A stretch of DNA of 64,000 bases from a bacterium (GTDB lineage: Bacteria > Calditrichota > Calditrichia > RBG-13-44-9). The stretch is taken from the NCBI GenBank assembly GCA_020350205.1, contig CP070707.1, forward strand, positions 2,430,811-2,494,810, given 5' to 3'. Made by a program: the position numbers and the translations under genes. Under the pieces are notes generated by a model, which ran no database searches, had not been told where the DNA came from, and was given only the letters and a program-made list of their open reading frames with translations. Every line of letters begins with the position of its first letter. Positions within the stretch are counted from its first letter, which is position 1. Positions 24,160-30,516 of this stretch are shown here, piece by piece.

Positions 24160-27030
24160 TTAAGCTTGCAGTGTACGTTTTTCCTTAATTAATTCGTATG
24201 CTTCGATGTGATCGCCAACCTTAATATCATTATAGTTTTCAATCATAATTCCGCATTCGTAACCAGAAACTACCTCCCGCGCATCATCTTTGAAGCGCTT
24301 CAAGGAAGCCAGTTTACCATCATAAATCTCAACATCATTACGAATCAGGCGGACCCGGGAATTACGGGTGATTTTTCCATCAGTGACATAACTTCCGGCA
24401 ATAGTTCCCAGGCGGGAAACTTTGAAAACTTCCCGGACTTCCAGCATACCTAGAATCTGTTCCTTTTCTTCGGGTTCCAATAATCCTTCTAGTGCCTTGT
24501 TGACATCATCTATGGCGTCATAAATAACTTTGTACAAACGAATATCAACTTTTTCTTCTTCGGATAATGCCTTAGCTTTTATGGTGGGCCGTACATGAAA
24601 TCCGATAATGATTGCCCGGGAAGCATATGCCAGCTGGACATCTGATTCTGTAATGGGGCCAACGGCTCGTCGGACCACTTTTACGGCAACATCCTTATTT
24701 GATAATTTTTGAAGTGAGTCCGAGAGGGCCTGTGCCGATCCACCCACGTCTGCTTTTACAATTATGTTAAGCTCTTTGACGGTCCCTTCCTGGATCTGCC
24801 GGGAAATCTCATCCAGCGTCAATAGTTTTATCTGGCGAAAATCCTGTTCACGAATGAGTTGCTGCCGGCGGTGTGCAATTTCTCGTCCCTGCCTCTCATC
24901 CCGCATTACCAGTAACCTGTCTCCTGCTTCGGGAACACCGTCGATACCGAGAACCTGCACCGGATAGGAGGGGGTAACGGAATCTACTGGTAGATTCCGC
25001 TCGTTTAGAAGTGCTCTTACCCGCCCATAATACTGTCCGACAATAAAATCCTGCCCGATTTCAAGAGTGCCCTGTTGAATCAGAACGGTGGCTACGGCTC
25101 CTTTTCCTTTATCCAGACGGGATTCGATTACTACACCACCCGCAGTTTTATAGGGATTTCCCTTTAATTCAAGAATTTCTGCTTCCAGTTGAATTTTTTC
25201 AAGCAAATCCGGAATCCCGGCACCGGTTTTCGCAGAAACATCAACGACCTGAAATTTTCCACCCCAGTCTTCTACCAGAATATTGCGGTCAGCCAGCTGT
25301 TTCCGGACTCCTTGCGGATCTGCTCCCGCTTTATCAATTTTATTTATGGCGATAATTATCGGAACGCCGGCAGCCCGGGCGTGATCTATCGCCTCTTCGG
25401 TCTGCGGCATGACTTTGTCATCAGCAGCAACCACCAGAACGACTATATCTGTCACCTGGGCACCCCGGGACCGCATGGCGGTAAAAGCTTCGTGACCGGG
25501 TGTATCCAGAAATGTTATTTTGCGGGAATCTTCCATCTCGACGACATAGGCACCGATGTGCTGAGTAATTCCTCCGGACTCGCCTGCCACTACATTTGCG
25601 TGCCGGATGTAATCTAACAGAGAGGTTTTACCATGATCCACATGACCCATTACGGTTACCACCGGGTGGCGGGATTCATAATCTTTCGGGTCATCTTCTT
25701 CTTCAAGACTTTCTTCCAGAAAGGATGAAGCAAATTCCTCTTCCTCTTTTACTTTCAGGCCATAATCTTCGGCAAGTAACTTAATCAATGCCATTTCGAG
25801 ACGCTGGTTCAAGGTAACCATTTGGCCCAGATCAAGACATTTTTTTAGCAACTCGGCCGCCGGAACGTCCATGAGATTAGCCAGGTCCTGAACAGTGATA
25901 AATTCCGTCACTGCAATCACATTTTCTTCATCCTCGCCTGCCTCATCTGCACTTTTCACTTTTTTACGGCGTTTCTTTCCGGTGCCGGTATCCTGCATAC
26001 TGGCTAATGTTTTTTTCAGAGTATCCTCAACTTCCTGTTGATCAACTTCTTTTTTCTTACGGGTGCGTTTCCGCCGGTCGTCTTTTTCGCCGAGTCCTTC
26101 CTCTCCTTCCAGTTCCAAATCGGGCCGGATTATTTTTGATTTTTTCCCTTCCTTCCGGATCATTTCCAGCGCTTTCCGCCGTCTGCGCTCTTTATCTGTC
26201 AAATCTTCCTCAAATTCACGTTTTTTCTTATCCTTCTTTTTGTGCAGTTTTGCTTCCTCATCTGTCTCGGTGACTTCAAGCTGTTCGGTTTCAGGTTCTT
26301 CTATCTCCTGAGCTCTCACGCGCTTGGGAATGAGTTCTTCCTCGCTCTTTACACCCTTTTTCTTGCCTTTACGGTCCTTGGAATCTTCCTTTATTTTCTC
26401 TAAAAGTTTTTTCTTTTTCTCTGTTTTTTTCTGTTTTAATTCTTCCTGCATCTTCAGAAATTGCCTGGCGCCGGGATGATCAATAATGTCTCCGATTCTG
26501 GGCTTCTCGTCGATCGGGGCTTCTTTAATTTCAGCCTCATGCTCACTTTTGGCTTCAGCCAGCTGCTCTTCAGTCTGTTCCTCCTCCATTTGAGCGGGAA
26601 TTTCTTCTGTCAGCTCAGGTTCCATTGGTTCATGATCTGCAGCAGCTTTTGCTTTGGCGTCTTTCCCTTTAGTTTTCTTTTTGCCAGTATCCTCTGATTC
26701 GACCGGCATTTCATCCACAGGTTCTGCTTCGGTAACTTCTTGTTTACTTTCAGGAGCCTTGGCTGCTTCGTCGTGGATCTCGCTTATTTCTTCAACGGTC
26801 TCTGCCTCTTCCTTGGCATGTTCCATTCTCCTCTGAGCGATTTTTTCGGCTTTCACCTTCTCCTGGGCAAATCTCTTGAGTATTTCATCATGCATGTCAT
26901 CTGTAATCGGTGTATTCAGACCTGACACCGCGAATCCCTTCTTTTCAAGAAATTCTATAATCGTTTGGTGGGAAAGGTTCAGTTCCTTTGCCACCTTAAA
27001 TAATTTTCTTCTAGTCTTTTCAGCAGCCAT
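24160..27030 (-). CDS. infB: Translation initiation factor IF-2
   Basis: GTPase that brings initiator fMet-tRNA to the 30S subunit. The 956-residue protein begins with an IF2_N helix-turn module ([22 protein letters not shown]), has a long Lys/Glu-rich linker from about 60 to 380, a second IF2_N-like module ([20 protein letters not shown]), then the G domain with G1 [11 protein letters not shown] at about residue 461, the DTPGHEAF switch and NKID. Domains II-IV follow (the last with [16 protein letters not shown]). All functional elements are present; only the charged linker is lengthy, as in many bacteria. It abuts the L7Ae-like gene by zero bases. Confidence 0.97.
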
Positions 27031-27357
27031 CTAAACTCCTGCTTTAAAATTTTTCCTTAGAGATTTCCCGAACTCGCCTTTTAAAATTCCAATGATCTTG
27101 TGAAATTCGATACCCCAGTTTTTTTTCCAGTCAATATTCGGTGTTGTCTGGAAGATGAGTATATCCGATTTTCTAATTTTATTTTCCATCCGTTCCAGAG
27201 TTTTTCGAGAAATTTTTGAATCCAGTAAAATAATTTCTATTGTCCGGTTATTTATGGATTTTTGAACCGATTCAAATCCTTTCACAACTTTGCCCGCTTT
27301 TAACGCAAAGCTGATTAAAGTAACTGTTGGTTGATTAAGTTGAATAGATTGAACCAT
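27031..27357 (-). CDS. L7Ae/L30e-fold YlxQ-like protein
   Basis: A small (108-residue) protein in the slot normally held by YlxQ between nusA and infB. The sequence fits an L7Ae/L30e RNA-binding fold: FALKAGKVVKGFESVQKSI, EIILLDSKISRKTLERM and a C-terminal FHKIIGIL-GEFGKS that resembles the family's 'LG.. G/K' end. The expected role is binding of structured RNA, perhaps on ribosomes, but no specific target is known. There are 11 bp between nusA and this gene, and infB follows immediately. Confidence 0.72.
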   Translation of the reverse strand: MVQSIQLNQPTVTLISFALKAGKVVKGFESVQKSINNRTIEIILLDSKISRKTLERMENKIRKSDILIFQTTPNIDWKKNWGIEFHKIIGILKGEFGKSLRKNFKAGV

Positions 27358-27368
27358 CTTTATCCATT

Positions 27369-28643
27369 TTAAACATTTAATAGTTGTAAAATCTTCTGAG
27401 CGGTCTTTTTGCCAATACCCGGTATTTCCAAAAGACCCTGCAGGCCCAGATTTTTTAATTCTTCCCCAGAATTTACATTTGCCTCTCTCAGTTTTTTAAT
27501 AAGTGAGGCTGTAAGGCCGGGGATATCTTCGATGTCGACTTCATCCTCCATAGATTTTTGATAGTATTCAGATTCTTTTATTAATTCGATATTCCAGCCG
27601 GAAATCTGCTGTGCCAGTTCCTTATTGGTTTCACCCCGTCCCATAGCCAGTCCCATATCCTTGTCAGGAATTATACCGACTGCCAGTTTCTCTTCATGAT
27701 TCAGGATTACGCGCAAAGGTTTTGCCGGCGTAAGGGCCCGTTGGATGAAAAGTTCAGATTCATTGGTAAAGGAGATAACATCAATTTTTTCTCCGTTTAA
27801 TTCTCGTACCACGGATTGAATTCGCACACCGCGCATTCCGACGCAAGCTCCTACCGGATCAATTCGCTTGTCCATTGATTCCACCGCAATCTTTGCACGC
27901 TCTCCGGGTTTACGGGCAATTTTTTTGATTTCTACGATCCCGTCGAATATCTCCGGAACTTCAATTTCAAAAAGGCGGATCAGAAATTGATTATCTGCTC
28001 GGGAGACAATAATGTCCGGTGTACTGCGGTTTTTACGTCGCCTGTTGAAATCTTCCTCCAATTCAATGACCTGGTTTTCAGGCTCGATCACTTTCTTAAT
28101 CAAGGCTCTCACACTATCTCCCCGGCGTAATTCCTCTCTGGGAATTGACTCTGAGCGGGGCATGAACATTTCGGTTCTATCAACCAGCAGAAAAAATCCA
28201 CTTCGGGTAACCTGATGAATATCTCCGATAATAATTTCTCCCACCCGACTGGAATACTCATCATAAATTTTCCTTTTTTCATACTCCCTGATCCGCTGCA
28301 GAAGAGTCTGTTTGGCAATATTAATCAGTCGTCGTCCAAACTGGTCGGGTTGAATGACTTCAACAAAATCTTCTCCTATTTCGATATCGGGATCAATCTT
28401 CCGGGCATCTTTATAATCAATCTGCAGGAGCGGATCCTGAACTTCTTCCACGACTTCTTTCTCGATGAATATTTCCACATCACCACGGTCCATATTGACG
28501 ATGACATCGAAATGATCCGATTCACCATATTTCCTTTTGATCAGTGTGAGAAAAATATCTTCCAGAATGTCACGCAGCTCATCCTTATCAATTCGCTTTT
28601 CTTTGGCTATAAGATTTACAGCTTCTACAATTTCGCTACGCAT
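27369..28643 (-). CDS. nusA: Transcription termination/antitermination factor NusA
   Basis: RNA-polymerase-binding regulator of pausing, termination and antitermination. The 424-residue protein has the N-terminal polymerase-binding domain, an S1 domain (GEIIGDIHQVTRSGFFLLVDRTEMFMPRSE), and KH1/KH2 (RAKIAVESMDKRIDPVGACVGMRGVRIQSVVREL, EKIDVI). The tail is a single helix-hairpin-helix unit (IPGLTASLIKKL, LLEIPGIGKKTAQKIL) in place of the paired acidic repeats of E. coli NusA. It follows rimP by 27 bp. Confidence 0.96.
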   Translation of the reverse strand: MRSEIVEAVNLIAKEKRIDKDELRDILEDIFLTLIKRKYGESDHFDVIVNMDRGDVEIFIEKEVVEEVQDPLLQIDYKDARKIDPDIEIGEDFVEVIQPDQFGRRLINIAKQTLLQRIREYEKRKIYDEYSSRVGEIIIGDIHQVTRSGFFLLVDRTEMFMPRSESIPREELRRGDSVRALIKKVIEPENQVIELEEDFNRRRKNRSTPDIIVSRADNQFLIRLFEIEVPEIFDGIVEIKKIARKPGERAKIAVESMDKRIDPVGACVGMRGVRIQSVVRELNGEKIDVISFTNESELFIQRALTPAKPLRVILNHEEKLAVGIIPDKDMGLAMGRGETNKELAQQISGWNIELIKESEYYQKSMEDEVDIEDIPGLTASLIKKLREANVNSGEELKNLGLQGLLEIPGIGKKTAQKILQLLNV

Positions 28644-28670: not shown

Positions 28671-29129
28671 TTACCAGTTTAACTTGATTATTGCTTTCTT
28701 GATCTCTTTCAGAGGAATCTGAACTTCTTTGTTTTTTTCCTCTAACCAGATATTTTGAGCATCGACCCGTGTCAACGTACCTACTGCCTCGCTAACTTTG
28801 TCTTCGATGTTATAGGTAACTCTTAAGTTTCTTCCTATATTTTTTTTAAATTGCCACACCTCCGTTAAGGGACGGTCAATGCCGGGAGAAGAGATGTCCA
28901 GCCTGTATCTCCCCCGGATGGGATCTTCCAAATCAAGTATACCTTCAAATTCCCTGGTGATGTCGGCGATTTGTTGTAGGGTAATCCCATCTTCGGTATC
29001 AATATATATTGAGAGAACCTGGCTGTTCGGTTTTCCCCGTAATTCCATATCTACTAAATATACAGCCGCATTTTCCAAGACAGGCATCAGCAATTTTTTT
29101 AATGCTTCTATTTCGCTGCTCATGTTCAT
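28671..29129 (-). CDS. rimP: Ribosome maturation factor RimP
   Basis: Needed for 30S subunit maturation. The 152-residue protein has the two expected domains: an N-terminal alpha/beta part (LVDMELRGKPNSQVLSIYIDTEDGITLQQIADITREF, LDISSPGIDRPL) and a C-terminal SH3-like part (VGTLTRVDAQNIWLEEKNKEVQIPLKEIKKAI). ATGs at 29129 and 29123 are both possible; neither has a strong Shine-Dalgarno. It is the first gene of the long minus-strand operon and its leader holds the promoter and hairpin described at 29150-29222. Confidence 0.95.
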   Translation of the reverse strand: MNMSSEIEALKKLLMPVLENAAVYLVDMELRGKPNSQVLSIYIDTEDGITLQQIADITREFEGILDLEDPIRGRYRLDISSPGIDRPLTEVWQFKKNIGRNLRVTYNIEDKVSEAVGTLTRVDAQNIWLEEKNKEVQIPLKEIKKAIIKLNW

Positions 29130-29149
29130 CGAATTTAATTTGTATCCCT

Positions 29150-29181
29150 AAAAATAAAAAAGTGGGTTTTGTCAACCCACT
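29150..29181 (-). terminator. Leader hairpin with T-tract upstream of rimP (possible attenuator)
   Basis: On the minus strand AGTGGGTT, a GACAA loop and AACCCACT form a perfect 8-bp stem (29161-29181), directly followed by TTTTTTATTTTT (29150-29160). It has the form of an intrinsic terminator but lies between the predicted promoter and the rimP start codon, about 20 bp before the ATG, so it would attenuate the rimP-nusA-infB operon instead of ending a gene. It might alternatively be a stabilising 5' hairpin. Confidence 0.7.
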
Positions 29182-29193
29182 CTAACGGCGCAA

Positions 29194-29222
29194 AATATAC
29201 AAAATGTAAAACGAATATGCAA
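29194..29222 (-). promoter_or_regulatory. Predicted promoter of the rimP-nusA-infB operon
   Basis: Read on the minus strand: TTGCAT (29217-29222), a 17-bp spacer, then TATATT (29194-29199), which is one base from the consensus -10 hexamer. The -35 match is moderate. Transcription would start near 29187, only a few bases before the leader hairpin. The remaining 220 bp to the divergent PHP-domain gene holds nothing else I can support. Confidence 0.55.
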
Positions 29223-29445
29223 GCGCTTTGAAGGATAATTGCCCAATTGATAAGGGCCCACGGAAAACCAGGTAGGGAAAGCAGCATCTGGATAAGTAAT
29301 GTTTGAAATGAAACGGATAGCTCTTGATGGCAAAAGGCTGAATTTTGTCTAAAAATGAATAAAAATTTAATTGGATTCGCTGAGGTTATATTTTAACATA
29401 TCTAGTTCAGATAGAGTAAATTCTACATTTGAATGAAGGATACAT

Positions 29446-30516
29446 TTGCCACCATTTCATGAAATAGTCGGTTGTATACATATCCATTCGATCTATTCCG
29501 ATGGTACCGGGACCATTCCTGAGATTGCCAAAGTGGCGGAAGAGGTAGGATTAAATTTTATTATGATGACTGATCATAATAACCTGCGTGCTTTAACCAA
29601 CGGTGAGGAAAAATGGTACGGATCGGTACTGGCGATTATTGGTTATGAGATCAACGATATTGATGATACGAACCATTACCTGGCGTTCGGATTGACTGAG
29701 GAAGTCAACCGTAATCTGCCCGCACCGCAGTATGTACATCAGGTCGCCCTGAATGGGGGATTCGGTATTATTGCCCATCCTGATGAACGCAGAGATGTCA
29801 TGTTGGAACATCCTCCGTATCCCTGGACTGCCTGGAATAGCGATGATTACCAGGGTATCGAAATATGGAATCAAATGTCAGAGTGGATGGAGGGTTTGAC
29901 TCCCTGGAATAAATTGTGGCGTTTTATCAATCCCCGCCGTTCAACGGTTGGTCCCAGTATACAAACTTTACAAAGATGGGATCAGGTGAATGAGAAGCGC
30001 AAGGTGGCAGGTATCGGCGGGGTGGATGCCCATGCCCATAAACACCGTATGTTTGGTGGTCTGGTGGAAGTTACCATATTTCGTTATAAGATTCAATTTC
30101 AGACCGTTAGAACCCACCTGCTGTTGACGAAACCTCTTCTGCCTGGTTTGGATGTGGAAGAAGCAAAAAAACTGGTGTATGATGCAATCTTAAATTGTCG
30201 GGTGTTTGTGTCCAATTTTTTTAATGGTGATGCAAAGGGCTTCCTGTTCTGGGCAGAAAATGAATCTGGGAAAGCGCATATTGGTGGGGATATCAACTTT
30301 GCTCCCGAGACTACCCTGCACGTTCATCTGCCTGCCATGGCCCAGGTGCATTTTATATGTAACGGAGAACTGATTCAGAAAAAAGAGGGCAAGATAGTTA
30401 CTCATAAAGTTGATCGACCAGGACTTTACCGGGTTGAAGTTCTGCGGCAAAATAGAGCATGGATTTATGCTAATCATATCAGGATAATTGGTGAACCGGC
30501 AAAACTGGATCAATAA
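29446..30516 (+). CDS. PHP-domain metal-dependent hydrolase
   Basis: A 356-residue PHP-family phosphoesterase-like protein. Metal-ligand motifs occur in the expected order: HIH (H12, H14) with D19, TDHNN (D43, H44), E68 in GYEIND, H111 in IAHPDE, E139 in GIEIWN and D194/H196 in GVDAHAH. The C-terminal portion (about 250-356) is a beta-rich domain resembling the Ig-like tails of CehA/McbA-type PHP proteins. Substrate cannot be told from the sequence. The start is TTG at 29446, supported by AAGGA five bases upstream; no in-frame ATG lies close. The end overlaps the UbiA gene, so they are likely cotranscribed. Confidence 0.75.
   Translation: MPPFHEIVGCIHIHSIYSDGTGTIPEIAKVAEEVGLNFIMMTDHNNLRALTNGEEKWYGSVLAIIGYEINDIDDTNHYLAFGLTEEVNRNLPAPQYVHQVALNGGFGIIAHPDERRDVMLEHPPYPWTAWNSDDYQGIEIWNQMSEWMEGLTPWNKLWRFINPRRSTVGPSIQTLQRWDQVNEKRKVAGIGGVDAHAHKHRMFGGLVEVTIFRYKIQFQTVRTHLLLTKPLLPGLDVEEAKKLVYDAILNCRVFVSNFFNGDAKGFLFWAENESGKAHIGGDINFAPETTLHVHLPAMAQVHFICNGELIQKKEGKIVTHKVDRPGLYRVEVLRQNRAWIYANHIRIIGEPAKLDQ

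Follow-up and report, generated by a model that had tools for sequence, protein, structure and literature searches.

The window analysed here, a stretch of 64,000 nucleotides from contig CP070707.1 of a bacterium assigned to the Calditrichota, raises the question of what a terminator-like hairpin placed directly behind the promoter of the rimP-nusA-infB operon does, and what it may sense. The initial annotation had read a promoter, a hairpin, a T-tract and rimP in this order on the minus strand, and both the order and the coordinates were correct (Table 1). We propose that this leader is probably a promoter-proximal attenuator of the rimP-leader kind, most likely operating through NusA-stimulated termination as negative feedback.

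Table 1. Coordinates of the leader elements and genes around rimP, numbered from the first letter of the window
Feature	Position	Strand	Basis or remark
-35 element TTGCAT	29222-29217	minus	sequence; conserved in 33/33 class leaders
-10 element TATATT	29199-29194	minus	sequence; conserved in class
Putative terminator hairpin	29181-29161	minus	perfect 8-bp stem; sequence, fold, conservation
Hairpin 5' arm AGTGGGTT	29181-29174	minus	sequence
Hairpin loop GACAA	29173-29169	minus	sequence
Hairpin 3' arm AACCCACT	29168-29161	minus	sequence
T-tract TTTTTATTTTT	29160-29150	minus	12 bases if the paired T at 29161 is counted
rimP	28671-29129	minus	ORF; Pfam RimP_N and RimP C-terminal domain; ATG at 29129
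nusA	27369-28643	minus	ORF; Pfam NusA_N, KH_5, HHH_5
Small gene between nusA and infB	27031-27357	minus	ORF
infB (IF-2)	24160-27030	minus	ORF; Pfam IF-2, IF2_N, GTP_EFTU
Upstream neighbour, PHP domain	29446-30516	opposite to rimP	ORF, Pfam

The two promoter elements are separated by a spacer of 17 nt, and 12 nt lie between TATATT and the hairpin, of which GTGGG/CCCAC is the conserved core. A single A interrupts the T-tract (TTTTTTATTTTT). Placed from the position of the -10 element, the transcription start is predicted at about 29187-29186, approximately 57 nt before the ATG of rimP, with only a few nucleotides of the predicted transcript preceding the hairpin. The 3' end of the stopped RNA is predicted at about 29155-29152, which makes the RNA about 34 nt long. 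The operon encodes NusA, and nusA is likely to be the regulator as well as a regulated gene. The small gene between nusA and infB had no Pfam match at E 0.001; from its position, we presume that it encodes a YlxQ/L7Ae-like protein.

Within the region itself, counting gave little to build on. The window promoter agrees with the consensus at 8 of 12 positions and is absent from the list of the generic promoter scan because that scan demands 9, and the terminator scan returned 13 sites over 10 kb, where shuffled sequence gave 11.2 on average. The promoter and terminator scan counts were thus at chance level and therefore unusable as evidence. The window hairpin has a folding energy of -13.8 kcal/mol (z = -2.65), and 1 of 200 shuffles was equally good. 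It was retained in the folded window leader, where no alternative (antiterminator) pairing was seen. What decides, at the level of sequence, is the comparison across genomes rather than counting within the region, and it is this comparison that lifts the signal above chance.

RimP was searched for by BLAST in 60 genomes, 40 of which belong to the window's class, and was found in 48. Among the 40 class genomes, six had no rimP match and one sequence (G030, L029) starts inside rimP, leaving 33 readable leaders. All 33 carried the GTGGG...CCAC hairpin with a T-tract, the leader of G026 differing by a G-T pair at one stem position. A promoter of the form TTGC...TA[ACT][AT]TT, ending 12-29 nt before GTGGG, was also present in 33/33, against 0.16 matches expected by chance from how densely the pattern occurs across these loci, counting the leaders themselves. 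This clade pattern (TTGC-N16-18-TA[ACT][AT]TT) was composed after the leaders had been inspected; the spacer was 17 nt in all 33 leaders, where the pattern would have accepted 16-18. Generic best-promoter scoring placed the promoter within 30 nt in 26/33 leaders (shuffles: mean 10.2, maximum 18), and the clade pattern was used instead because the generic scoring chose another site in at least seven leaders. Choosing the best-scoring T-tailed hairpin picked a stronger upstream one in L018, L019, L020 and L022, in which the GTGGG hairpin is nonetheless present. Furthermore, the strict hairpin pattern GTGGGY...RCCCACTTTTTT had a single occurrence in each of 32 class genomes out of 40, always immediately upstream of the rimP match, whereas the same pattern read backwards gave 1 match across all 40. 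The predicted stopped RNAs of the 33 leaders measure 32-46 nt (median 35), assuming a start 7 nt past the -10 element and a stop 8 nt past the stem. Conservation in relatives, which the initial annotation had set as a test, was thus found in every readable leader of the class. The strict coupling of promoter and hairpin throughout the class appears to be new, as far as our literature searches show.

The same core was found far outside the class. We assembled 134 rimP upstream regions from genomes sharing only the domain with the window: 133 came from 191 non-class genomes with a PF02576 match, mostly those with the better-scoring RimPs among the matches listed, and the 134th, from G052, came from the BLAST search. 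G081, G086, G131 and G285 were left out, and a few stretches were shortened by contig ends. The motif GTGGG...CCC[AG]C with a T-tract was present in 72 of the 134 leaders, against a mean of 0.11 over 100 rounds of shuffling and a maximum of 1 in this or any other set, the shuffles preserving dinucleotides whenever a path could be found and being plain otherwise. The exact motif was absent from the other 62, some of which carried variant stems. Promoter distances in these phyla, within 30 nt in 31/53 leaders and within 60 nt in 46/53 compared to 19 and 33, respectively, in plain shuffles, are only suggestive of promoter proximity. A scan of the collection for a -10 element plus hairpin yielded 103 contig stretches, in which the next gene was RimP in 60, NusA in five and neither in 38, at least one of these 38 (L094) being a rimP leader truncated where its stretch ends. 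Of the 60 RimP stretches, 55 had 900 nt or more available, and NusA followed RimP in every one of these; the total with NusA after RimP was 56. These 103 contigs are uninformative on spacing because the -10 element was part of the scan pattern. The reach of the GTGGG core across bacteria seems to be new, as far as the literature searches show.

Does the element belong to rimP or to nusA? Among 65 genomes without a PF02576 match, 51 had NusA, and 48 upstream regions were counted after G004 (partial), G052 and G200 had been left out. Absence of rimP here means absence of a PF02576 match only, since BLAST revealed a divergent RimP in G052; judged from its hairpin-nusA distance, G200 probably carries one too. 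The motif with its T-tract lay directly before nusA in 15 of the 48 genomes (shuffles: mean 0.05, never more than 1 in 100 rounds). In these 15, 46-131 nt separated the hairpin from the beginning of the NusA match, leaving no room for rimP, and no RimP-like frame was found in their fetched stretches. The 15 are partly related, G113 and G255 belonging to one genus and G051 and G199 to one family; L339 (G107), with 274 nt between its hairpin and the NusA match, was left out of them. The exact motif was absent from 33 of the 48 nusA leaders, with variant stems in some. In addition, the five scan contigs in which NusA is the first gene carry the -10 element and hairpin before it, NusA being confirmed by Pfam in four and, in L073, by sequence comparison and reading. 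The titles of L073, L122 and L127 name Chloroflexi, Chloroflexota and Dehalococcoidia, and that of L132 Pelagibacteraceae; the fifth contig is L163. A methyltransferase gene precedes the hairpin in L132. The NusA proteins of L122, L127, L132 and L163 matched the S1 domain of Pfam, unlike that of the window, which matched NusA_N, KH_5 and a C-terminal HhH and gave no S1 match at E 0.001.

A further 50 genomes were examined, 44 of them picked for the absence of the motif before rimP. The nusA gene lay apart from rimP in three (G080, G225 and G250; L387-L389), and the motif was found at neither gene, so that the element seems to have been lost along with the operon. An adjacent RimP gene is dispensable because the motif stands directly before nusA in genomes without a PF02576 match. 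NusA is the constant partner in these cases, and the element seems to follow nusA and not rimP. This comparative sign is new as far as the searches show; the passages covered on the rimP-leader contain no mention of the element upstream of nusA in genomes that lack rimP. The terminator that the initial annotation had recognised in the leader of the nusA operon is thus strongly conserved, stands near a conserved promoter and, in some genomes with no rimP match, precedes nusA itself.

Variation within the hairpin carries the signs of an RNA structure. When all sets are pooled (119 hairpins), the stretch enclosed by GTGGG/CCC[AG]C has a length of 4-13 nt, and the 33 class leaders show 28 different inner sequences. 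The second outer pair of the 87 non-class hairpins was A-T in 43, G-C in 29, G-T in eight and unpaired in six, and the innermost pair was C-G in 35, T-A in 15, T-G in nine, A-T in five and unpaired in 22; the core-adjacent pairs in these hairpins keep pairing via double changes. A reverse-strand control requiring only 4 T in 9 was also passed by 18/33 class, 31/134 other-phyla and 9/48 nusA leaders. Because the motif is palindromic and preceded by A, this control is weak, and the asymmetry between T and A was used instead. T in the 12 nt 3' of the stem exceeded A in the 12 nt 5' of it in 32/32 class leaders, 70/72 other-phyla rimP leaders and 14/15 nusA leaders. Six T in a row directly followed CCCAC in 32/32 class hairpins counted. 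We regard the reading of the hairpin and its T-tract as a terminator as almost certain.

The window leader is a further example of the known rimP-leader attenuator and not a new kind of system. The rimP-leader has been described as the most ubiquitous attenuator, with a terminator of the form GGGc...gCCC and no antiterminator (Naville & Gautheret, 2010; PMC2965389). As in that description, rimP-nusA-infB has a premature terminator in its 5' region, the T-stretch directly follows the stem and no antiterminator is visible. The window stem, GGGT...ACCC, has the GGG/CCC arms with an inner T-A instead of C-G pair, and both pairs occur inside GGG/CCC in the wider hairpin set. Its distance from the gene, 20 nt between the end of the T-tract at 29150 and the ATG at 29129, falls in the range of 4-130 nt reported for the rimP-leader. 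In contrast to the rimP-leader as described, no more than 12-29 nt separate the promoter from the stem core in every class leader read, and the class core, GTGGG/CCCAC, is longer than the published GGG/CCC, though the longer core may already show in the published logo. In Flavobacterium psychrophilum, a structured 5' element is reported to precede rimP, to be conserved in further genera and to have no Rfam match (PMC9723704). The Rfam family RF01770 (rimP, Gammaproteobacteria) has the same gene position and element class as the window leader. Its 102-position model matched E. coli K-12 at 102 bits as a positive control; it found nothing in the whole window with the gathering score as cut-off, in 29100-29450 with E values of up to 10 or in 11 related loci. 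Four weak Rfam hits in 29100-29450 (up to E 10) were taken as chance, including one to L20_leader that overlaps the hairpin and is far below the cut-off. The rimP leader of E. coli K-12 (L184) contains two terminator-like hairpins, the first of which is followed by TTTTTTGTTAT, the commonest tail among the class leaders.

Leader termination of this operon has been reported elsewhere. RNA-seq of the Streptococcus agalactiae operon gbs0413-gbs0418 (rimP-nusA-infB-rbfA) placed the stop 31 nt downstream of the start site, where an intrinsic terminator is predicted, and feedback by NusA was proposed (PMC4448216). The stop in this distant phylum was measured, whereas the stops of the class leaders, with their median of 35 nt, are predicted. 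The caveat raised in the initial annotation, that an RNA of about 35 nt is very short, is answered by this streptococcal case. NusA autoregulates by NusA-stimulated leader termination in B. subtilis (review PMC12288461, citing Mondal et al., 2016), where the rimP leader is about 180 nt (PMC2965389) compared to the predicted distance of about 57 nt from start to ATG in the window. The claim that NusA autoregulation through leader termination is known from other bacteria thus holds, being reported in PMC12288461 and proposed in PMC2965389 and PMC4448216.

Considering these results, we propose the following scenario for the window leader. RNA polymerase would start about 7 nt past TATATT and make a few bases before the hairpin. 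The AGUGGG...CCCACU hairpin and the U-tract would then form, and part of the polymerases would stop there, with release of a transcript of some 34 nt, while the remaining polymerases would read through into rimP-nusA-infB. NusA bound to the polymerase would aid hairpin formation, and more NusA would lead to more stopping and less nusA mRNA, that is, to negative feedback. That polymerases stop at the window leader, and that NusA drives this, is how we interpret the comparative data, and the GUGGG core may be a feature for recognition beyond a stable stem. The feedback suggested by the initial annotation is supported by conservation and the literature, and we infer the action of NusA in the window's organism from these. 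Terminators of the B. subtilis sort have a weak hairpin and/or an interrupted T-tract. The window T-tract is interrupted and its hairpin is perfect (-13.8 kcal/mol); that the stem is that of a perfect short terminator, with the interruption by one A confined to the T-tract, may speak against the NusA reading.

Of the other explanations, the best supported keeps the attenuator and replaces the sensor by RimP, another operon product, NusG or a general RNA-binding protein, which we judge unlikely. Another binding protein is possible because the conserved stem sequence exceeds what a NusA-stimulated terminator needs. While NusA has been proposed as the best candidate for the regulator of the rimP-leader, RimP was mentioned as possible (PMC2965389), and NusG, which also stimulates termination in B. 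subtilis with a preference for TTNTTT (PMC8060035), may contribute, since TTATTT in TTTTTTATTTTT fits this pausing motif. Against RimP as sensor stands the motif directly before nusA in 15/48 genomes without a PF02576 match and in five contigs, and against any sensor other than NusA stands the NusA-stimulated leader termination of nusA reported in B. subtilis (PMC12288461). A hairpin of fixed effect that senses nothing, either as a constitutive attenuator or as a protection of the 5' end of the mRNA, is less probable still. Hairpins at the 5' end can protect mRNA, and one only a few bases from the end could shield the read-through transcript; the lack of antiterminator pairing in the folded leader also agrees with a fixed effect. 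However, the six T that follow CCCAC throughout the class hairpins counted exceed the need of a protective hairpin, and a repeated link with nusA across phyla is unexpected of a generic stabiliser. If the palindrome were a DNA operator bound by a dimeric repressor immediately behind the promoter, this would account for the perfect inverted repeat (approximately +5 to +26 of the predicted transcript) and for paired changes, which are also expected of a palindromic operator, but we rejected this reading as very improbable, since a dimer site of fixed geometry could hardly tolerate an inner segment of 4-13 nt and the T-rich side is one-sided. Equally improbable is a chance hairpin, which the chance-level regional counts would allow and conservation in 33/33 class leaders refutes, or a terminator of the upstream gene, rejected because the divergent neighbour at 29446-30516 runs on the other strand.

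The occurrence of the attenuator in contigs labelled from Calditrichota to Chloroflexota and Pelagibacteraceae, and immediately before nusA in some genomes with no rimP match, suggests that NusA feedback is ancient; NusA is essential in both E. coli and B. subtilis (PMC12288461). A bolder version, which we hold only tentatively and consider doubtful, is that GUGGG/CCCAC is an old cis-element belonging to nusA, with a near pan-bacterial spread, and that in the class its fixed place inside the first 35-45 nt or so lets termination report the speed of NusA loading onto the polymerase at promoter escape. The leader would then sense free NusA at the switch from start to elongation, as sigma leaves, and the conserved core would be a sequence recognised by NusA or the polymerase. 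The leaders of about 35 nt are the simplest form of the system. They leave scarcely any room for an antiterminator and would therefore be a clean template for the question of NusA at promoter escape, as well as for the question of why the stem of a terminator needs a fixed sequence.

Similar hairpins also precede genes other than rimP and nusA. Thirteen alphaproteobacterial contigs (L068, L075 [Pelagibacteraceae], L076, L078, L079, L087, L100, L103, L112, L114, L115, L116 and L150) carry a -10 element, an AGTGGGT...RCCCACT hairpin and a T-tract, near-unchanged among isolates, before a gene whose protein starts with MATTSTPQRQESDRHQKKTW or nearly so and is probably a transporter permease. In the Maribacter-group contigs L069, L070, L118 and L133, plus L143 and L158, a similar hairpin stands before a protein of about 419 amino acids (MKDLFERILANKGPLGKWASQAEGYFVF) that is neither RimP nor NusA.
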